Source: Rhizophagus irregularis
Taxonomy: Eukaryota; Glomeromycota; Glomeromycetes; Glomerales; Glomeraceae
Direction: 5' to 3'
DNA: 64,000 nucleotides
NCBI RefSeq assembly: GCF_026210795.1
Contig: NC_089438.1
Coordinates: 3,493,501 to 3,557,500, forward strand
Shown: positions 42,268-64,000 of the stretch, piece after piece
Layout of the letters: each line of letters starts with the position of its first letter
Numbering within the stretch: the stretch's first letter is position 1
The notes under the pieces: generated by a model
Database searches by the model: none
What the model was told of the DNA's origin: nothing
Seen by the model: the letters and a program-made list of their open reading frames with translations, nothing else
Translations under genes and position numbers: made by a program

Positions 42268-44457
42268 AAGATCTATTGTTACTCCAGTCCAGATGATTTT
42301 GAAAATTTGGAAATTCATCCATCACATAATAAATTGTGGAATTTATATCTAAAAAATTATTTTCACATCTTGGGAAAAATTAATCCAAATCTCGAAACAA
42401 TTCTCAAGCGTGCAGCACCTCCAACTTATCCCCAAATCCGAGAATTGGTTCTTAAATATTTTATTGATAATTTTAAAAGGTATTCTAAGCATTATAATCC
42501 AGAAACAGTCGATATTGCATTTTTACCTTGCTCAAATTCAAATGGTTATGCAAGACCTTCGGATTGCTTTATTAATGATGAATGTACGATAATGAATTTA
42601 CAAACTATACGTGAGGATTTACGTTCTAAAGCAGAAAAATTAGGTGTCCGACAAATTCCTGATTATAAAAAACTCAAAGAGAAATTAATTGAGAATCCAC
42701 CACAAAATAAAAATGAGGCAAAAAAAATATTTGAATACTTGAATAGATTTAATTATAATTGGAGTTCACTTATCAATATTCAGTTTATTCCGATTCAAGA
42801 TGAAAGTAAGATCAATAACAAATACTTCAAACCATGTGACTGTTTCTTTAAACTTAAAGAAGAAAGGTGTGTATTTGTTAATTCAAATATTTTTAACAAA
42901 AGTTACGTTTTTTTTTAAAAAATAATATATATATATTTCTTTTTTTTTTTAGCCTAAATGAATTCTTTCTATGCGTTGATTTTGGTACAAAGGCCAATAA
43001 ATTCTTGGCCAAATGTGGCGTTAGAGATCCATCTTTATATGATTTTGCCGAAATATCAGTTGATCCATCACATAGTAAATTGTGGAAGTTACATTTAGAT
43101 AACTATTTGAAAATTTTAACAAAAATCAATCCCAACCTTGAAACAATTCTCAACCTGGCAGCAAATCCAATTTATCCTAAAACCCGGGAGATGTCTCTCA
43201 AATACTTTGTTGATAATTTTTATATTAAATATTCAAAGTTTTATAAACCAGAAGAAATCGATGTTGCATTTTTACCTTGCTCAAATTCTAATTCTTATGC
43301 AAAGCATTCGGAATGTTTTATTAATGATGAATGTAAGATAATGGGATTCAAAATTATACGTGAAGATTTACGTTCTAAAGCAGGAGATTTTGGTGTTCGT
43401 CAAAATCCTAATCGTGTAGAACTCATAAATGGGTTAACTGAGAACCCACCAAAAAATTTAAATGTGGCAAAAGAAGTTTTTGATTATTTGTATACACAAC
43501 AAGAAAGTTTTACTGATTCTGATTGGAAGAAGCTTAAAGATTTCGAATTTATTCCAATTCAACCTAACGAACTCTTTAAACCACGTGACTGCTTTCTTAA
43601 ACTCAAAGAAGAAAGGTATGTACTTTTTGAATACAAATATTTTTAATGAATATCTTTTTTTTTTAATAGAAAAATATTTTTTTTTTTTAGTTTGAATAAT
43701 TTCTTTCCATGTGTTGATTTTGGTACAAAGGCCAATGAATTTTTAGCCAAATGTGGTGTTAAAAAACCATCCTCGTATGATTTTTCCAAAATATCAGTTG
43801 ATCCATCACATAAATTATGGAATTTATATTTAGAAAATTATTTGAAAATTTTAGCAAAAATTAATCCCAACCTTGAAACAATTCTCAACCTGGCAGCAAG
43901 ATCAAATTATCCTAAAATTCGGGAGTTAGCTTTCAAATATTTTGTTGATAATTCTATAGTAAATATTCAAAGTTTTATAAACCAGAAGAAATCGATGTTG
44001 AATTTTTACCTTGCTCAAATTCTAATTCTTATGCAAAGCATTCGGAATGCTTTATTAATGATGAATGTAAGATAATGGGATTCAAAATTATACGTGAAGA
44101 TTTACGTTCTAAAGCAGGAGATTTTGGTGTCCGTCAAAATCCTAATCGTGAAAAACTTATAAAAATGTTAATTGAGAACCCACCAAAAAATAAAAATAAA
44201 GCCAAAGAAGTTTTTGAATATTTGAATACACAACAAGAAAGTTTTACTGATTTTGATTGGAAGAAGCTTAAAGATAATGAATTTATTCCAATTAATTATG
44301 AAAGTCAATCTAACAAAAATATTAATGAACTTGATGACCTTTTCAAACCACGTGATTGTTACTTTAAATTTAAAGATAAAAGGCAAGTACCTTAATATAT
44401 TTTTCACCTAATTATATATATTAATTTTATTCATCTACTTATTTATTTTATTTTTAG
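42268..44457 (+). repeat. Tandem exon array of the DUF3684 pseudogene (three units)
   Basis: Units start at about 42268 (partial), 42953 and 43691, with the next exon at 44458, so the period is about 740-770 bp including intron. Each unit carries SHxLWxLYxxNY, INPNLETIL, AFLPCSNSN, CFINDEC, REDLRSKA, NPP and PRDCF or PCDCF, and ends at a phase-2 donor. Unit 1 has a RFNYNWSSL segment, unlike units 2 and 3 (TQQESFTDSDWKKL). Its intron also differs (GTGTGTAT against GTATGTAC), so at least two unit subtypes coexist. Confidence 0.85.
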
Positions 44458-45507
44458 ATTGAATGATTTCCTTCCATGCGTTGATTTCGGAACAAATGCT
44501 AATAAAATTTTTGGCTAAATGTGGTGTTAATTACGATTTATTATCAAAAGATATTCACCGATTGCTGTTTAAATCATCACATGAATTGTGGAATTTATGT
44601 AAAAAAATGATACAAAAAAATATTTGCATATTTTGGAAAAAATTAATGATATTAATAATAAGTTTCCAGAAAAAAAATTAAACAAAGATGATGTTCTAAT
44701 TGCTATTAAAACTGATAGTAAAGGAAATGACTTTTATTTTTTGGCAACAGTAAAAGAAATTTACATAAATGATGATAAAGTATATCATAAATTTTTAATC
44801 CATTTACACCTCCTAAAAACTTGCGAGATTTTTATAAGGTATGTGTGTTTAAATTATTTAATCTTTTATTTTTTTTTATTTTTTTTAATTTTTTATTCAT
44901 TTTTTTACCTTTTTTTTTAGAAACTTGGATGTAAATCGTTGCATGAATCTGTGACAAAATCCGTGGTTCCATATGGTCCTATTCAAAAAACAAAGTATTC
45001 ACGACAATTACAAAGAATAATTAGAGAACGAGCGAGCTTATTCTACTTAGATCATTCTGAAGAATACATTAGAAAAGATGAAAAATGGCTTAAAAAGCTA
45101 AAAGTTAGAGAGATCGAATATATGGAAACGAGTTATAAGTTAGGATCCATTACAAAGAACGAAAGAAATGATATTACTACCAATATTTCTCAAAAAAACA
45201 CGATTTCATGGATTCTTTATGTGACACCTAATTCTAATCTAATTGATATTTCACAACAATTAGTCAATCATATTTTTACATCACATTATCAGAATACTTC
45301 TTATTTTAACAATTTTAACAGCACCTTTATCAAACTTAAAAAATATGGGAATAATTCACCCAAAATTACAAAATGATCAGCGCACATCAAATACATTTCC
45401 ATCACAACATAATGATGTAGATATTTCTTCTGAGAATACACGAAATTTACGAAACTTTTTGCAAGTTGCCATAAAATCTTACTATTCTAACTCAGAAAGC
45501 AATATTA

Positions 45508-45893
45508 TCGCTGTTTTCAAATTAGTGCGACCCCCTGCATGTCACCCCCTAAGGAAATCGGTTTTCGCAAATGTGGAAAACCCGGAATTTTTCTGAATAA
45601 CTTTGTAGAAAAGGTCCGATTGCTAGTGATTTCTGGAGGAAATCTCAGGAAAATTTCAATTATTCAAATAGTTTGCTTATAAGTGAGTGATAAAACTTTG
45701 TGTAACGTAAACACTTTTTTATAAGCAAACTACCTTTATAACTGAGAATTTCGCAAGATTTCCTCTGGAAATTGCTAATAATTGACCCTTTCCTACGTAG
45801 TTATTCAGGAAAATTCCGGGTTTTCGCAAATTTTTGGAAATCGATTTCCTTAGGGGGTGACACGCGGGGGTCGCACTAATTTGAAAACGGCGA
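45508..45893. mobile_element. 386-bp foldback MITE inserted in the pseudogene, TA target
   Basis: The left end TCGCTGTTTTCAAATTAGTG continues GCGACCCCC and TGTCACCCCCTAAGGAAATC. The right end inverted is TCGCCGTTTTCAAATTAGTG with the same continuation. The two halves are complementary through most of the element, meeting near GTTTGCTTATAA / TTATAAGCAAAC. It is flanked by TA at 45506-45507 and 45894-45895. Removing it and one TA restores the reading ESNINSIKTCIDESK in frame, which proves insertion into coding sequence. TA target and foldback form suit a Tc1/mariner-type MITE. It carries no gene. Confidence 0.88.
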
Positions 45894-46581
45894 TAATAGT
45901 ATTAAAACTTGTATCGACGAAAGTAAAATGAATTACTGTGAAACTATGCCTGGTAATATTAAGCAACATGTAATTTTAATTAAGTTTACTATAAATTTTT
46001 CTGCTAACTTGGCTTATTAATTTTAGGTTATTCAATGCACTGTGTTGGAAATTTACAAAAAATTGAACTTTACGTCCCTACTGATGTTGATCAATCAGAA
46101 ATCCTATCTCAATCACGTATTGTCCCATTGAGCAAATTCATATATATATTAAAAGATCAAGCGAATGTCTTTGAAGTTACACCAAAAGTTATTCACATAT
46201 TTTATGATAATAGTAAAAACTCAATTGCATTTAATCGTGATAGAGCGTTATTTTTTAATTTGAAATTTTATCTTGAATTACACGAACAAACATGTAAAAA
46301 TAAACCAACGATTGACGCTATGACTTATTGGTTCACGATATATTGTCATGTATTGGCACATAACTTTATTCAACTTCATAATACCGAATTTGAAGTGAGT
46401 ATAAAAAAATTTATTTTTATTTTTTTTAATATTTTTTTTTCATTAGTTTTATTATTCGTCATTCGCACAAGCTTATATGCCGGACTTGATTGAATTAACG
46501 AAAAAACGTGAAGTCAAATCCAAAACTTTTAACATTGAAATCTTTTGGAAAAATTTTAACCGAATTTTAAACCGAAATTAA

Positions 46582-48251
46582 AAGCAAAATCGAGTGTTAA
46601 GTTATTTACACAATAAATATTCCAACGAAAGTATCAATTAAATTTTTCGAATTTTCACGTTTTTTTTTTTAGCCTATTATTTTATGATTTTTGTAGTTTT
46701 TATATAAATATACAGTACAGAGTATACTTTTATATAAGTATTTTCTAAATATTTTATTTTCCATTAAAATGTATATTTTACTTTTTTATTTTTCTTTTAT
46801 TTGATTGAATAAATATTCATATAAATTTCAATGGTTACTGAAATTTTTCTGACGGTATTTGAATTTAATATTTTTATATGAAGCTGTAGATAAAGATCAT
46901 CCTAAAATTATTGTTTTTCACGGATATGTGTATTGACGTCAGGGAACTTTCTGTGGTTGCATGTCTGAAGTGTGTGTTAGGACTGTTTAGTGTTTTGATC
47001 CGGATAAAATCTTAAATATTTTAAATGAGATTATTGCCGAAAAAAGATTGTAAATCTCAGTTCTGAATAGACTATAATTTCGACCAGAATATTTAGTATA
47101 TTATGAATCAAAAAATTGGTAATTCTGATAGTTCCATCCTGAATTAACCGAAACGGATACCGGATAAAAACCGGATAAAACCGCTTCGGATCCAAACACT
47201 AGGACTGTTAGGTAGACCCGCATCACAAAATTCTGATCGCGTGATACAACCAATCAGATCATCGCATCGCACTGATAAAAAAAAATGAGAAAAATAAAAG
47301 AAAAAAGGCAATATTATATTATAATGAAAATATTTTATTACTTTTATAATAAGGACACCTAAAATAGTTCTTTGCACATATTAAATTTAAGATATTTTAA
47401 TTTTTACCCATTATAACGTTTCACAAATAAATATCACTTGACTTACCCACATCATCTCACATTCCTTGTAGAGAAAATTGTTCTTTTGACAACTTCATTA
47501 TAATAATACAAATTTTTATTTATTTACTTGCAATTGTTAGTACAGTCATAGATGATATGCAATTCGGCGGATAACAGTTTTTATCTTTTTTTTGTTATAT
47601 TGACTACATCCCTTTTTGATTTTTGCGGGAATTTTATTGATTATTATTACATATTACAACTGTTACTATTCTTTTTTTTCATACTAATTTTTTTTCTTTT
47701 TAGAAGGTTCTTTTCCAACGCTCGTTTTTCTGAGAAAAAAAATCCTTTGCTTGCTACTATTTATTTTCTTATACTACATCGGATTTGATGAACAAAAACA
47801 TGCTTATACAAAATAAGACTTGTACATATATACATAAAAAAGAATACTTGTATGTATACATACATCAAGTAAAAAGTTTTTTTTTTCATTAGATGGGAAA
47901 TAAATAAATTAAAATAACAAATAAAATATAATATAATATTGATTATTTATACGTGTTACTTATGATAAGAATATCTATTTTATTAAATATTTTTACTGCG
48001 GGTTCATGCACCCAGAAAAAGTGATCTAAACTTAAATGAAAATATAAACGAACCAGGTTTATTCTTCGGGTTTTTATTAAAAGAAACACAAAAAAGAATT
48101 TTGTTTTTTTCAAATAAAATAAAATGAAAATGAAAATACACACAAGTGAACAGCAATAACGTGGCTATGTCGATTTAAAAATTTTTTTACGTAAAAATTT
48201 AAAAAGTGACTCTTACCTTAATAAAAAAAATATATATTTATTTATTATATA
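46582..48251. other. Downstream of the pseudogene, no gene
   Basis: AT-rich. 47145-47200 contains repeated ACCGGATAAAA words on a CCGAAACGGATACCGG core, the debris of a repeat. Short frames at 47144-47377 (-), 47552-47788 (+) and 47943-48143 (-) are hydrophobic by composition. Confidence 0.45.
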
Positions 48252-51744: not shown

Positions 51745-52530
51745 AAACGTCAACGGGAGAATATTAAAAAACGAACAATGCAATGCTTAAAAAAGAAGAT
51801 AATGATAAAGGTTAAAAATAAACTACGTAAAGATAAAAAAGAATTAAAACATTATTAAGAATGAACAATGCAATGCTTATTAGAAAAGAAAATAATAGCG
51901 AAGATTAAAAAATAAACTATGTAAAGATAAAAAAGAATAAAATCATCACTGGGAGAATATTAATACTTGGAAAGAAGATAATGATAAAGGTTAAAAACAA
52001 ACTACGTAAAGATAAAAAAGAATTAAAACATTATTAAGAATGAACAATGCAATACTTATTAGAAAAGAAAATAATAGTGAAGATTAAAAATAAATTACGT
52101 AAGGATAAGAAAGAATAAAATCATCACTGGGAGAATATTAATTCTTAGAAAGAAGATAATGGTAAAGTTAAAAATAAACTACGTAAAGGTAAAAAAAAAC
52201 GAAAAACATTATTAAAAATGAACAATGCAATGCTTAGAAAAGAAAATAATGGCGAAGGTTAAAAATAAACTACATAAAGGATAAAAAAAAAATAAAAACA
52301 TCACCGAGAGAATATTAATTCTTAGAAAAGAAGATAATGGCGAAGGTTAAAAATAAACTACAAAAGATAAAAAAAGTAAAAATATAAAAATATCAACGGG
52401 AGAATATTAAAAATGAACAATGCAATGCGTGGGAAAAGAGATAACGGTGAAAAATAAATTACGTAAGATAGTAAGACATTAAAAATGAGCTATGCAATAA
52501 GTAAAAAATAAATTAAGATAATCTATGCTT
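51745..52530. repeat. Minisatellite, unit about 90 bp, higher-order pairs of about 180 bp
   Basis: About eight units carry GAACAATGCAATGCTT, a block AAGAAGATAATGATAAAGGT (or AGAAAATAATAGCGAAGATT) and AAATAAACTACGTAAAGATA. Two subtypes alternate. One has a CATCACTGGGAGAATATTAA junction and the other CATTATTAAGAATGAACAAT, so the unit of amplification is probably the pair. Later units (from about 52300) are more degenerate. No open frame spans it. Confidence 0.85.
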
Positions 52531-56591: not shown

Positions 56592-59500
56592 ATGTCTTTA
56601 GATACCCTTAGAAACGAGATCCTTTCAAACTCTGACGAGGATCGAGTTCAAGTCAATCAAAGAGATTTAATTGATAAGATTTTAGCTCGGTAAATCGTTA
56701 ACTCTTACGTAATATGATGACATCATTATTTCCTGTTTTGCTAAAAAAAAAATACCTTTTTAGATACTCTTGTAAATTTGTAATATTCCGAGAATTAATG
56801 CAAAATTCTGGTAAAATATTTATTCTTTATATATTTGTTCGTAATTTAACAAAAAAAAAAATTAATTATTTTCGTTTACGTACTTTAATAAAGATGATGC
56901 GGAATCATCAAGTGCTAAAATTATGTTTAAAACCAATGGCAATAAAATTACAAGAATAATATTTAAAAATAATGGATTCGCTTTTAGACCTGAAGATTGG
57001 GAGCGTTTAGTGAGAATTGCTGAAGGAAATCCTGATGAACAAAAAGTAGAAAAAAAGATTTTCATATCAATTTTTTTTTAATTAAATCATATTTATCATT
57101 TTTATTGATAAAATTTCCTTTTTATGACATTAATAGATAGGAGCTTTTGGCGTAGGATTTTATTCATTGTTTGCTGTTACAGAAAATCCATTGTAAGTAT
57201 TTTATTATTCTCTTTTACTCACCGTGAACTATTTAATAAATAATAATAACGTTAATATTTAATAGTGTTACTTCTGGCGGACAAGGCATGGCTTTCTATT
57301 GGCGTGGAAAACAAATATACACGAAACGAGGACCAAGGAACGATGATGATGACAAAGGTTGGACAACATTTTTGATGGACACTAGGGAACCCTTAATGGT
57401 AAATATTGCTTAAACATAATTAAAAATAATCATATATACAGTATATCATGATATTTATCCCCTTTTTTATCGTTAATTAGATACCAAATATTGAAGAACT
57501 CTCAAAGTTCTTGGTCAATTCATTGGTAAGTTAGTTAAATAATATCGCTAACTATTATTATTTAATCTTATTAATATTATATTTCTTCCATAACAATAAT
57601 AGGGGTTTACGGATAACCTTAAAGAAATATCAATGTATATCGATGATAAACTGGTAACAAAAGTATCAAAGAAAATGCAAGATCCGGAATCAATTGATAT
57701 TACATCTAGGTTTAATACATTTTCTTCAAAAAATATGTTTAATCTCACATCGGTAGAACTTAGATGTGTCCAACTAGACGTTGAAAGATTACTTCTACCA
57801 AAAAAAATAAATATAAAACATCTTCGCTCAGATGAGTATAATATGGAGGAAGCTTCTGCAATATTTAGAATTGCCAAAGGAAGTTTGAACGTTAAGATTA
57901 GTAAAGAATTTTCCGCAAAAATGGGACGAATAACTAAGAAAAGTCCACCAAATAATACATCCATTCAAATGATTTTTACTGAATTCGATGAACGTAATAC
58001 ATCCAAAGATTATTATAATAATCTTTCTCCTATATTTGAAGATTTAATTTCATATCCTGAACAAGGAAAAATATATATTGGTTTCCCAACTAATCAAACA
58101 ACCGGTTCTAGTTCTCACTTAGCAGCTCGTGTGATTCCTACTGTAAGTATATTTTAATTTATATATACCATGATTTATTAAATGTTAGCATTTATCTTAA
58201 CATAATTATGCTCTTCTAGATGGAACGAGAGTTGATTGATTTTGCTGAACAAACATTAGCTGAATATAACATTGAAATGTTATGTCTAGGAGGAACATTG
58301 AGCAGAATTTTATACGAATATGAAATGGCTCAAATGTCGATCTTCTGTAATGAGACTATCAGTTCTGATATTGAAAAATATGAAGAATATGAAGAAACAA
58401 AACAGCCTAAAAAGCGTGCACCTGAGCCAAAAACGAAAAGATCGTTATATAAATGGCTTACAAAACGTTTCAAATTCAGCAATCACGCTAATTACACTTC
58501 GACCGTGCAATTAACATCTCCTCACCGTCAATTGTTAGAAAAATGGGCAGCACATGCGATAGCACACTTTACATACAATGCAAGTACTCCAAATGTACGA
58601 GTTTCCGAAATAGCAGAAAAACAATTTTTTAATTGTTTGGAACAGAACTTGCTTATTTTATCAACAAACGGTGTCCATCCAATAACTGATGTTCGCTTAC
58701 CTAATCCAGAAATGGCAGGATTCATAAAGACAGTTCCACTTGTTCCAAAAAAATTGTTGGAACAATGTGAAAGTTTTTTTAATAAAGCCAAAGGTGCAAA
58801 TCTTATAACAGAGTTAAGTTTTGAGGATGTTCTGGTTGAACTAAAAAGTCGAGCACTTTCTGAAGAAGAAATAATTAAACTTTTGAAATGGTGGATTTCT
58901 TATCTATCAAATGGAAATCCATATGACACGCGGCTTTTGAAATTTACACAAATCGGTGATAGTTCTCAAACTCTAAATACAATTAAATTTTATTTGAATC
59001 CACACAAAATTTCCTCAGATTTTGACATTCCATTTGAAGTAATACCATATAATATTTCTAAAAATTTCACTCAGCAAGAGCTTACGAATAGTTTGAAATG
59101 GAAAGAATTACCATTGGTTAATTGGGCAAACTTTATTGTCAATGATCCTGGATTAGAAACAGAACCTAAATTTGCTGAAAAAATTCATCATGTTTTGGCA
59201 AAAAATTTAGAAAGTATTCCACAACAAGATAAAGAAACTATTCGTCTATCATTTATTGCAAAAAGATGTATACCAACTAAATTTGGAATGAAATTTCCCA
59301 ATAAATCTTATTTCGAAGATGTAAATCTATTTCCTAACTTGCCAACGATAAAATTTCAAAACTCAACGTCGGGTATTAAATATTTGATGGAACATTTTGG
59401 AGTTCGTAAGGTAATGATAATTCATTATGAATGATAATTTTAGAAAATTTTTTTTAAAACAATTAATTAAATTAATTATATAGGTTGTAGAATTAAAACT

Positions 59501-62500
59501 CATTCTTGAACGACTTGTCAATCAAGAAGATTGTAACTTTGTTGGAGTTGTAAAATATCTTGCTTCAATATATGATGAACTCAACGATAATGAAAAGAAT
59601 ATATTAAAAAATGAATCAATATGGCCTAAAGAAGATTTATTAGGTTTACCAACAACTAAAAAAATTCAACGTTTTATTGCCAGAGATTTATATGTACCTA
59701 TAAGATCACTTCGTGAACTTGGTTTATCTATAATTGATTGGAATGCAGAATGGTCTAATAGCTCAAAAGGAGGTAATATAACTAACTATTATTTAATTTG
59801 TTTGTTTATCTTATCAAGTTATACATATTTAATTAATTAAAATTTATAGGAAAATTTTTAATTGAATTGGGTTTACAAGAATATCCCAAACTCGAAACAA
59901 TTCTTAACCTGGCGGTACCTTCAAATGATCCTAAAATTCGAGAATTAGCTCTTAAATATTTTATTGATAATTATGATAAATATTCTGTACATTACAAACC
60001 CGATGAAATTAATATTGCATTTTTACCTTGTTCAAAATCCAATACTTACGCAAAACCTTCAGAGTGTTTTACTAATGATAGATGTATGATAATGAATTTC
60101 AAAGTTGTACGTGAAGATTTACGTTCTAAAGCAGAAAAATTTGGTATTCAACAACATCCCAATCATGATAAACTCGTAAAGAGGTTAACTGAGAATCCAC
60201 CACAAGGTGAAAATAACGCAATGAAAGTTTTTGAATATTTGTATTCACGACAACACGACTTTACCAATGCTGATTGGAATATTCTTAACAATTCCGAATT
60301 TATTCCAATAAAAAATGAGAACATACATATAAAACCACGTGATTGTTTCTTTAAACTTAAGGATGAAAAGTAAGTACTCTTCAAATATAACTCTTTTTTT
60401 AATAAAAATTTTATAGATACTTTAACAACAATTATTATTAATTATTATTTAGATTGAATGATTTTTTTCTCTGTGTTGATTTTGGAACAAAGGCCAATGA
60501 ATTTCTGTCCAAATGTGGTGTTAAAAAGCAAACTTCTAATGATTTTGCCGAAATAAAAGTTGATCCATCACATAAATTATGGAAGTTATATGTAGAAAAA
60601 TATCCAGTCATCCTAGAAAACATTAATCCAAACCTTGAAAAAATTCTCAACTTGGCAGCTCCTCCTACCGATCTTAAATTACGTACAATGGCTCTTAAAT
60701 ATTTTATTGACAACTTTGATAGAAAATACGTTGGAGTTTACAATCCAGGGATGGTCAATATTGCATTTTTACCTTGCTCAAATTCCAATGCTTATGCAAG
60801 GCCTTTGGATTGCTTTATTAATGATGAATGTATGATAATGAATTTCCAAATTATACGTAAAGATTTACGTTCTAAAGCAGAAAAATTTGGTATCCAACAA
60901 AATCCTGATTATACAAAACTCACAGAAAAGTTAATTAAGAACCCACCACAAAATAAAAATGAGGCAAAAAAAGTTTTTGAATATTTGAATAAATTTAATC
61001 ATAATTGGAATACACTTATAAATTCTCAATTTATTCCAATTCAAGATGAAAATAGTCCAAACAACAAATATATCAAACCAAATGACTGTTTCTTTAAACT
61101 TAAAGATGATAGGTGTGTACTTTTTAAATATAAATATTTTTTTAACGAAAGTTACATGTTTTTTAAAAATTAAATATATATTTCTTCTTTTTTTTTTTAG
61201 CTTGAATGAATTCTTTCTCTGTGTTGATTTTGGTACAAAGGCCAATAGATTCTTAGCTAAATGTGGCGTTAGAGAACCATCATCATATGATTTTGCCGAA
61301 TTATCAGTTGATCCATCACATAAATTGTGGAATTTATATGTGGAAAAATATCAGGTCATCCTAGAAAAAATTAATCCAAATCTCGAAAACATTCTGGAAC
61401 TGGCAGCCCCTCCCATTAATCCTAAATTACGTGCAATGGCTCTTAAATATTTTATTGACAACTTTAAAAAAAAATACGCTAGATATTATAAACCAGAAGT
61501 AATCAATATTACATTTTTACCTTGCTCAAATTCTGATACTTGTGCAAAGCCTTCGGATTGCTTTATTAATGATGAATGTAAGATAATGGGATTCAAAATT
61601 ATACGTGAAGATTTACGTTCTAAAGCAGTGGATTTTGGTATTCATCAAAATCCTAATAGTGCAAAACTTATAGCGAGGTTAACTGAGAATCCACCAAAAA
61701 GTGATGATGTGGCAAAAAAAGTTTTTGAATATTTGAATACACAACAAAAAGATTTTGTTAATTCTGATTGGAAGAAGCTTGAAAATTTTAAATTTATTCC
61801 GATTCAATATGAAAGTCAACCTAACAAACTTTTTAATCCACGTGAATGCTTCTTTAAACTCAAAGAAGAAAGGTATGTACTTTTTGAAATTTTTTTTAAT
61901 AAATATCTTTTGTTTTTTTAAAGAAAAATATATTCCTTTTTTTTTAGCTTAAATAATTTCTTTCCATGTGTTGATCTTGGTACAAAGGCCAATGAATTTT
62001 TGGCTAAATGTGGCGTTGGAGAACCATCATCATATGATTTTGCCGAAATATCGGTTGATCCATCACATGAATTGTGGAAGTTATATGTAGAAAATTACCC
62101 AGTCATCCTAGAAAAAATTAATCCAAATCTCGAAAAAATTCTCAAACTGGCAACTCCTCCTACCAATCCTAAATTACATGCAATGGCTCTTAAATATTTT
62201 GTTGACAACTTTGATAAAAAATATGTTAAAGATTATAAACCAGAAAATATTGATATTGCATTTTTACCTTGCTCAAATTCTAATTCTTATGCAAAGCATT
62301 CAGAATGTTTTATTAATGATGAATGCAAGATAATGGGATTCAATATTATACGTCAAGATTTACGTTCTAAGGCAGGAGATTTTAGTGTTTGTCAAAATCC
62401 TAATCGTGTAAAAGTCATAAATAAGTTAATTGAGAATCCTCCAAAAAATGTAAATGTGGCAAAAAAAGTTTTTGAATATTTGAATACACAACAAAAGGGT

Positions 62501-64000
62501 TTTATTGATTCTGATTGGAAGATGCTTAAAGATTTAGAATTTATTCCAATTCAACAACACAAATTTATTCCAATTCAACAATACAAACTTATTAAACCAC
62601 GTGACTGTTTCCTTAAACTCAAAGAAGAAAGGTATGTACTTTTTAAAAAAATTTTTTTTTAATGAATATCTTTTATTTTATTTATTTTTTTTTTAAAGAA
62701 AAAATATTTCCCTTTTTTTTAGCTTGAATAGTTTCTTTACATGTGTAGATTTTGGTATAAAGGCCAATGAATTTTTGGCTAAATGTGGCGTTAGAGAACC
62801 ATCTTCATATGATTTTGACAAAATATCAGTTGGTCCAACACATAAATTGTGGAATTTATATGTAGAAAAATATCCGATCATACTAGAAAAAATTAATCCA
62901 AATCTCGAAAAAATTCTCAACCTGGCATCTCCTCCTACCAATTCTAAATTTCGTGTAACGGCAATTAAATATTTTATTGACAACTTTGATAAAAAATATG
63001 CTAAAGTTTATAAACCAGAACAAATCAATATTGCATTTATACCTTGCTCAAATTTCGATGCTTGTACAAAGCCCTCGGATTGCTTTACTAATTATAGATG
63101 CATGATAATGAATTTTAAAATTATACATGAAGATTTACGTTCTAAAGCGGGAAAACTTGGTGTTCGTCAAAATCCTAATCGTGTAAAACTCATAAATAGA
63201 TTAGTTGAGAGCCCACCAAGTAATGCGAATGTGGCAAAAGAAGTTTTTGATTATTTGAATACACAACAAGAAAGTTTTACTGATTCCGATTGGAAGAAGC
63301 TTGAAAATGTCAAATTTATTCCGATTCAATCTGCTAACAAACTTGTTAGACCACGTGACTGTTTTCTCAAACTCAAAGAGGGAAGGTATGTACTTTTTGA
63401 ACACAAATATTTTTAATGAATATCTTTTTTTTAATAGAAAAATATTTTCTTTTTTTTTATAGTTTGGATAATTTCTTTCTATGGGTTGATTTTGGTACAA
63501 AGGCCAATGAATTTTTAGCCAAATGTGGCGTTAGAAAGCCATCTCCGTATGATTTTTCCAAAATAACAGTTGATCCATCACATAAATTGTGGAATTTATA
63601 TTTAGAAAATTATTTGAAAATTTTAACAAAAATTAATCCCAACCTTGAAACAATTCTTAACCTGGCAGCAAATCCAATTTATCCTAAAATCCGGGAGTTA
63701 TCTTTCAAATATTTTGTTGATAATTTTTATAGTAAATATTCAAAATTTTATGACCCAGAAGAAATTGATGTTGCATTTTTACCTTGCTCAAATTCTAATT
63801 CTTATGCAAAACATTCGGAATGTTTTATTAATGATAAATGCAAGTCAATTGGATTCAAAATTATACGTGAAGATTTACGTTCTAAAGCAAGAGATTTTGG
63901 TGTTCGTCAAAATCCCAATCGTGTAGAACTCATAAATGGGTTAACTGAGAACCCACCAAAAAATGCAAATATGGCAAAAGAAGTTTTTGAATATTTGAAT
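56592..64000 (+). CDS. DUF3684-family protein with HSP90-like ATPase fold and tandem exon-encoded repeats (3' end beyond window)
   Basis: Fifteen exons join in phase: 56592-56689, 56764-56810, 56894-57045, 57137-57192, 57266-57398, 57481-57525, 57603-58142, 58220-59410, 59484-59772, 59850-60369, 60453-61112, 61201-61872, 61948-62631, 62723-63385 and 63463 to the window end. That gives 2096 open codons so far. Residues about 45-130 show a Bergerat (GHKL) ATP site: ELMQNSDDAESS (Glu/Asn/Asp), NNGFAF, and GAFGVGFYSLF. Residues to about 850 are the conserved DUF3684 body, then six repeat domains follow. The first (exon 10) is short and diverged and the other five are about 220 residues each. Related fungal proteins normally have one such domain, to my knowledge. 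The fold predicts an ATP-driven chaperone or DNA-linked machine, but no role is established. No stop or frameshift is seen. Confidence 0.85.
60453..64000 (+). repeat. Tandem array of symmetric (phase 2-2) repeat exons
   Basis: Unit starts 60453, 61201, 61948, 62723 and 63463 give periods of 748, 747, 775 and 740 bp. Exons are 660, 672, 684 and 663 nt (multiples of three) and every intron splits a codon after base 2. Conserved in each unit: VDFGTKAN, FL-KCGV, SHKLWNLY or close variants, AFLPCSN, CFINDEC or CFTN, DLRSKA, ENPP, VFEYLN, FIPIQ, and RDCFxKLKxxR at the donor. Introns (74-90 bp) share GTATGTACTTTTTGAA and a long poly-T tract, so exon and intron were duplicated together. The array continues past the window end. 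Confidence 0.92.

Follow-up and report, generated by a model that had tools for sequence, protein, structure and literature searches.

A hybrid-exon array in a sacsin-like ATPase gene of Rhizophagus irregularis and its probable growth by misaligned recombination

How can a large coding gene gain or lose whole repeated exons without damage to its reading frame, and where did the first repeated exon come from? This question is raised by a 64,000-nucleotide (nt) stretch of the Rhizophagus irregularis genome (contig NC_089438.1, here C10; C10:3493501-3557500, forward strand), which we call the window and which holds most of a gene with a tandem array of repeat exons. We consider it likely that the array lies in one large sacsin-like ATPase gene, in which a hybrid exon was made by duplication and the number of units was changed by misaligned recombination. 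Each gain or loss of a unit would have lengthened or shortened the middle part of the predicted protein by about 220 amino acids. How a symmetric exon array begins and grows can be read here as in a natural record: one genome holds the ancestral two-exon state, the hybrid exon, and genes with 1, 2, 6, and 9 units, and the extra units of the largest array retain crossover points inside the exon. It also offers a testable case for the stepwise length evolution of a sacsin-like ATPase.

The window gene and its repeat array

The window gene (56592-66795) was modeled as 20 spliced exons with a single open frame of 2,871 codons. It runs about 2.8 kb beyond the window end, to about window coordinate 66730-66795, within the next 5.5 kb of C10 (L001). 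Exon ends and splice sites of all models were placed from sequence alone. W1-W6 are the hybrid units of the window gene and P1-P9 those of a nine-unit sister gene at C10:3583k; identities in the list below refer to the latter.

56592 to 64000, plus strand: window gene, the part inside the window; spliced model with one open frame
56592 to 57525, plus strand: exons 1-6, sacsin-type GHKL ATPase domain (Pfam and solved-structure matches)
57603 to 59772, plus strand: exons 7-9, DUF3684 body, best stretches within profile positions 125-714 (Pfam PF12449)
59850 to 60369, plus strand: exon 10 (exon A), 5' half-unit, DUF3684 713-897 (Pfam match and exon model)
60453 to 61112, plus strand: exon 11, hybrid unit 1, 660 nt (97% to P1)
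61201 to 61872, plus strand: exon 12, hybrid unit 2, 672 nt (96% to P2)
61948 to 62631, plus strand: exon 13, hybrid unit 3, 684 nt (97% to P3)
62723 to 63385, plus strand: exon 14, hybrid unit 4, 663 nt (96% to P5)
63463 to 64122, plus strand, of which the window holds 63463 to 64000: exon 15, hybrid unit 5, 660 nt (95% to P8, 93% to P6)
64200 to 64871, plus strand, past the window in L001: exon 16, hybrid unit 6, 672 nt (94% to P9)
64950 to 65328, plus strand, past the window in L001: exon 17, half-unit B, which closes the array (exon model)
Past the window in L001, plus strand: exons 18-20 (exon model)

Exons 1-6 matched the Pfam profiles SACS (PF25794, E 9e-16, 58.9 bits with a cut-off of 32.8) and HATPase_c_3 (PF13589, E 1.9e-6, 28.4 bits with a cut-off of 25), and the top sequence matches of this part among solved structures were sacsin entries 5v45 and 5v44 (E about 2e-9). 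The N-terminal domain is a predicted sacsin-type GHKL ATPase, with ATP binding and hydrolysis predicted. By eye it also carries what we take to be GHKL-like motifs. Exons 7-9 matched the DUF3684 profile PF12449 with E values of 7.6e-36, 8.3e-84, and 4.8e-19; exon 8 scored 282.6 bits, exon 10 165.4, and exon 11 155.5 (curated cut-off 27). The SACS domain was confined to the first 232 residues, the searched pieces of exons 7-11 and 17-20 matching DUF3684 instead, and no match to NACHT or WD40 was found in the searched pieces of the gene. An earlier reading of the window from its letters (the sequence-only reading) had named a GHKL-type ATPase and a DUF3684 body, and both assignments score above the curated Pfam cut-offs.

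Five copies in the same register, spaced 748, 747, 775, and 740 nt apart, were detected by a direct-repeat search of window positions 59850-64000; the start-to-start periods in the array are 737-775 nt. The sequence-only reading had counted at least five head-to-tail copies; the count was right, and the complete array consists of six units flanked on either side by a half-unit. Its first copy, at 59850, is a different exon (exon 10), which shares only its last ~500 nt with the units and has an upstream intron in phase 1. At the other end, exon 17 begins with repeat-type sequence and continues into the C-terminal part of DUF3684. The further claim that each unit is a multiple of three bounded by phase-2 introns holds for all six complete units. 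Every intact hybrid exon, 19 from five loci, has a length divisible by three (the frameshifted and 5'-truncated units of a decayed locus were omitted from this count), and phase 2/2 is seen in the models of the 6-, 9-, and 2-unit genes. All 19 are open in the expected frame and none in either of the other frames (0/19 each), which rules out chance for the array. Unit 6 of the window gene uses a GC-AG donor; a GC donor in the last unit is common to three loci. Nucleotide identity among units is 76-92% in the window gene and 76-98% in the nine-unit gene.

The hybrid exon and its relatives in the genome

The genome searched comprised 146,748,485 bases in 32 contigs. A DUF3684 search gave at least 76 matches (42 of 126 candidates scored) and a search with one repeat exon gave 58 (all 61 candidates scored), while a DUF3684 profile search matched none of 14 control genomes. 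The two genome searches combined gave 20 DUF3684 loci, and all 20 sequences were examined. Fourteen of them have no hybrid exon, each with one exon A and one exon B. Hybrid exons are present in five loci: six in the window gene, nine in the gene at C10:3583k, two at C10:3744k, one at C10:3670k, and a decayed set at C10:3536k. The remaining locus, on C18, is a fragment with a partial match to the DUF3684 body only and no repeat-exon match in the 5.5 kb examined. Paralogues with 0, 1, 2, 6, and 9 intact units thus coexist in one genome, which bears out the sequence-only proposal that copies can be gained or lost without frame damage. Fourteen of the 20 loci are on C10 and 13 of those lie within C10:2.95-3.75 Mb; because 13 of 20 are clustered in 0.8 Mb, tandem duplication seems to act in this cluster at both the gene and the exon level.

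Open models were obtained for the nine-unit gene (3,530 codons) and the two-unit gene (2,012 codons). Outside the array the exon lengths of the nine-unit gene equal those of the window gene, and the two-unit gene differs in five exons. The model of the one-unit gene (1,777 codons) is provisional, as the donor sites of two of its exons were varied until the frame was open, and one donor is unusual. As a separate observation, P1 and P2 of the nine-unit gene lie in one 492-codon open frame (C10:3585597-3587018, the span of sequence L002), so that the 87-nt intron between them appears to be free of in-frame stops; its retention would leave the frame intact.

In the order of the Pfam DUF3684 profile, the repeat covers positions 902-966 and then about 724-901. 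In the two-unit gene, nt 1-173 of a hybrid exon align to the gene's own exon B and nt 174 onward to its own exon A; the A/B junction was aligned in this one gene, and by eye it appears alike across the 19 translations. The unit is a hybrid exon, in which the start of B leads straight into the body of A. The ancestral gene would have had neighboring exons A and B with a phase-2 intron between them, and a single in-frame tandem duplication, of a segment with one end within A and the other, beyond the intron, within B, would have created the first hybrid exon: about 174 nt from the start of B, followed by the final ~500 nt of A.

The A/B intron was then compared among the 14 single-copy relatives. 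Its acceptor is seen directly in phase 2 in 11 of them; for the other three acceptors, and for nine of the 14 donors, the position came from a script with this phase as a requirement, and five donors were left unassigned. Because every duplicated copy carries the same phase-2 A/B intron, the 2/2 symmetry of the units is inherited and not a special design. The sequence-only reading had presented phase 2/2 as a design; duplication of a segment with one intron, already in phase 2 in the single-copy relatives, explains it. The array-gene rows form one clade in both the exon-A tree (38 rows; 100/99) and the exon-B tree (37 rows, without the broken final B exon of the decayed locus; 99/97), as expected if the hybrid exon arose once. 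An independent origin of the array in each gene was also considered and is unlikely, since the array genes group in both trees and the junction looks alike by eye. The two units of the two-unit gene may have arisen by a separate expansion.

Growth of the array

The starts of the window gene and of the nine-unit gene, which lies downstream within a tandem segmental copy of the locus (window 53358-66991 vs. C10:3578539-3594369, main block 91.5%), are about 32 kb apart. When the units of the two genes were compared over the whole exon at the nucleotide level, four clear pairs were observed: W1/P1 (97%), W2/P2 (96%), W3/P3 (97%), and W4/P5 (96%). The last two are less distinct: W5 is closest to P8 (95%), with which the exon-B tree also pairs it (96/79), and W6 is closest to P9 (94%). 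This leaves P4, P6, and P7, and each of them is a chimera of flanking types. P4, which lies between P3 and P5, has the P5 type at seven of the first nine diagnostic sites and the P3 type at 63 of the final 64. P6 and P7, which lie between P5 and P8, carry the downstream W5/P8 type at 73 and 72, respectively, of the 80 leading sites, and each carries the P5 type at 10 of the 12 final sites. In the chimera test of each of the three units, 0 of 2000 shuffles attained the observed split. The intron after P4 is 96% identical to that of W3, 91% to that of P3, and 83% to that of P5, and hence is of the type of the 3' parent.

A crossover between misaligned neighbors would join the 5' part of the next unit to the 3' part of the previous one, as is the case in P4, P6, and P7. 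With two repeats present, misaligned recombination within them would add or remove whole periods of ~750 bp (exon plus intron), and the frame would be kept, given the homology of the repeats and the intron common to all of them. The extra P units look like products of such misaligned recombination. Some other units, for example P9, hold internal patches closest to another type, which suggests gene conversion.

Several points weigh against this account or limit its resolution. The 5' switch in P4 is based on only nine sites. P6 and P7 are 98% alike, differing by about 16 substitutions, and as near-copies of each other they reduce the chimeras to at most two independent events. Their introns fit less sharply than that of P4, being 97% identical to the intron of P5, 93% to that of P8, and 88-89% to that of W5 (the intron of P8 is itself 95% like that of P5). 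The exon-A tree groups W6 with P6 and P7 (100/95), places P9 outside, and leaves W5 unpaired with P8. In a recombination scan of all triples, 258 of 1257 had 0 of 2000 shuffles attaining the observed value, and conversion may therefore be widespread among the units. Because the triples depend on one another and rate variation along the exon would inflate this count too, the argument for growth is based on the three extra units. Unequal crossing-over would leave the same traces as other misaligned repair, such as template switching. The synonymous divergence (dS) is 0.056 for P6/P7 and 0.073 for P3/P4; between the window gene and the nine-unit gene it is 0.067-0.127 for the units (pooled 0.088), 0.068 for exons 1-10, and 0.054 for exons 17-20. 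As the dS of the extra units is near that between the genes, the gains cannot be dated relative to the gene duplication. Single steps may be losses in the window gene rather than gains in its sister, but the chimeric units themselves demand gain events. Lastly, the expression of every unit is predicted from DNA sequence only.

Use of the units, known systems, and surroundings

When the window gene was compared with the nine-unit gene, the pooled ratio of non-synonymous to synonymous divergence (dN/dS) came to 0.39 in the six unit pairs, against 0.37 in exons 1-10 and 0.57 in exons 17-20. The units are under purifying selection, with a constraint similar to that on the remainder of the gene. 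With a dN/dS of about 0.39 they are probably translated, and we infer that all of them are spliced into one long protein.

These values bear on a first alternative, in which the units are optional cassettes and alternative splicing skips one or more of them to give many isoform lengths. All six units are symmetric (2/2) and compatible with skipping, but the symmetry stems from one phase-2 intron and hence gives no sign of selection for skipping, and the units are held by purifying selection like the remaining gene. We regard optional use as unlikely.

A second alternative is that the array forms a recognition surface whose repeat number is polymorphic among strains or nuclei, evolving like the WD40 arrays of fungal NOD-like receptor (NLR) incompatibility genes. 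For the high-internal-conservation (HIC) WD40 repeats of het-d, het-e, and HNWD, unequal crossing-over has been proposed to alter the repeat number, and concerted evolution is described (PMC12222747, in whose text the word "exon" is absent). The precedent from Podospora, the strong differences in unit number among paralogues, the mosaic units, and the clustering of 13 of 20 loci in 0.8 Mb of one contig all speak for this view, and both systems are fungal tandem repeats of changing number. Against it, unit-wide dN/dS is below 1 in 15 of 15 unit pairs (0.21-0.65), with no diversifying selection seen in that unit-wide comparison, and the units, at 76-92% identity (76-98% in the nine-unit gene), are less alike than the Podospora repeats, for which over 80% to 100% is given (PMC12222747). 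Unlike those arrays as described there, each repeat here is its own intron-bounded exon, no NACHT or WD40 match was found in the pieces searched, and the genes are not known to act in incompatibility. We judge a recognition surface improbable. A more elaborate version, a variable-length system for recognition or client binding in which new chimeric units are continually made, unit number and order vary by strain or nucleus, and the units set the specificity of the ATPase, is quite doubtful.

It is also very unlikely that the array is a decaying, non-functional expansion. One related array fragment inside the window, about 10 kb upstream of the window gene, is clearly decayed and frameshifted:

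42290 to 46826, plus strand: decayed, 5'-truncated array gene (C10:3536k), from sequence comparison

This locus retains one intact, one frameshifted, and one 5'-truncated unit, and its final exon is broken. Against decay of the array, just one frame is open in each of the 19 intact hybrid exons, complete open models were obtained for three genes, and the dN/dS of the units is about 0.39. An assembly artefact with over- or under-counted repeats is extremely improbable: tandem repeats are well known for misleading assemblies, but every unit is distinct (2-24% nucleotide differences, with even the closest pair, P6/P7, about 16 substitutions apart), W1-W4 have one-to-one partners in a second gene, and introns and splice sites are consistent throughout.

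Judged by its sacsin-like N-terminus, the protein would be an Hsp90-like ATPase that serves as a chaperone or scaffold. The repeats would lengthen the region behind the ATPase, which would form the scaffold or hold clients in a chaperone-like machine. Simple extension of that region is the most likely role of the array; an altered unit number would then alter the reach or the number of binding sites. The word "scaffold" is weakened by an AlphaFold prediction on unit 2 (six window-only rows), in which the mean predicted local distance difference test score was 51. A sequence search of one unit against solved structures gave nothing meaningful (best E 0.094). An hhalign comparison of the two FxP-P-CF segments within a unit (probability 69%, E 4e-5), which is biased because the segments were cut at the shared motif, gives a hint of two-fold internal symmetry.

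Tandem duplication of symmetric exons is known from large animal genes such as titin, nebulin, and fibronectin. The array resembles them in its exon-sized, frame-neutral units with bounding introns of the same phase, and differs from them in its phase 2/2, its hybrid exon, and its setting in a fungal ATPase gene whose paralogues form a graded series. Sacsin itself has three large repeats of at least 1,100 residues each, 16-18% alike and including the ATPase, and human SACS consists of one gigantic 12.8-kb exon and nine upstream exons (PMC3629688). Like the SRR/SIRPT organization of sacsin described there, the window gene has an Hsp90-like GHKL ATPase followed by a long non-ATPase region with internal repetition. 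Unlike in sacsin, repetition is confined to ~220 residues behind a single ATPase, with one exon per repeat and 76-92% nucleotide identity; the repeats are sub-regions of DUF3684, and in the pieces searched the window gene lacks the three ATPase-containing repeats that define sacsin proper. In Prunus, the TIR-NBS-LRR gene Ma has five post-LRR (PL) exons, with one in most of its cloned relatives (PMC6141779). There too, exons are repeated C-terminally in a large gene and ascribed to exon duplication; the present array differs from Ma, as that text presents it, in family and kingdom, in its two-exon hybrid unit, in the half-units at both ends, and in the chimeric units of the sister gene. Frame-neutral growth of exon or repeat arrays is already known from Prunus Ma (PMC6141779) and fungal NLRs (PMC12222747). 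Our literature searches found no paper on DUF3684, none joining sacsin with Rhizophagus, and nothing on this DUF3684/sacsin-like family in Rhizophagus irregularis. So far as the literature was searched, the DUF3684/sacsin-like setting, the hybrid-exon build, and the 0-1-2-6-9 series with readable crossover points are new. The units also provide a marker set with which nuclei and strains of this multinucleate fungus can be compared.

Three minor features were observed around the gene. A 178-bp tandem repeat of ~3.3 copies lies upstream of it (window 51792-52375). About 0.4 kb past its stop there is a 90-bp near-perfect palindrome (L001:3205-3294) made of two 45-nt arms, 96% complementary and with no spacer, which is perhaps a relic of a mobile element. 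An open reading frame at L001:3245-3706, which overlaps the palindrome and extends downstream, matches the sea-anemone cytotoxin family (PF06369, E 6.8e-28); in this fungal genome it is a predicted cytolysin-like gene or a fragment of one.

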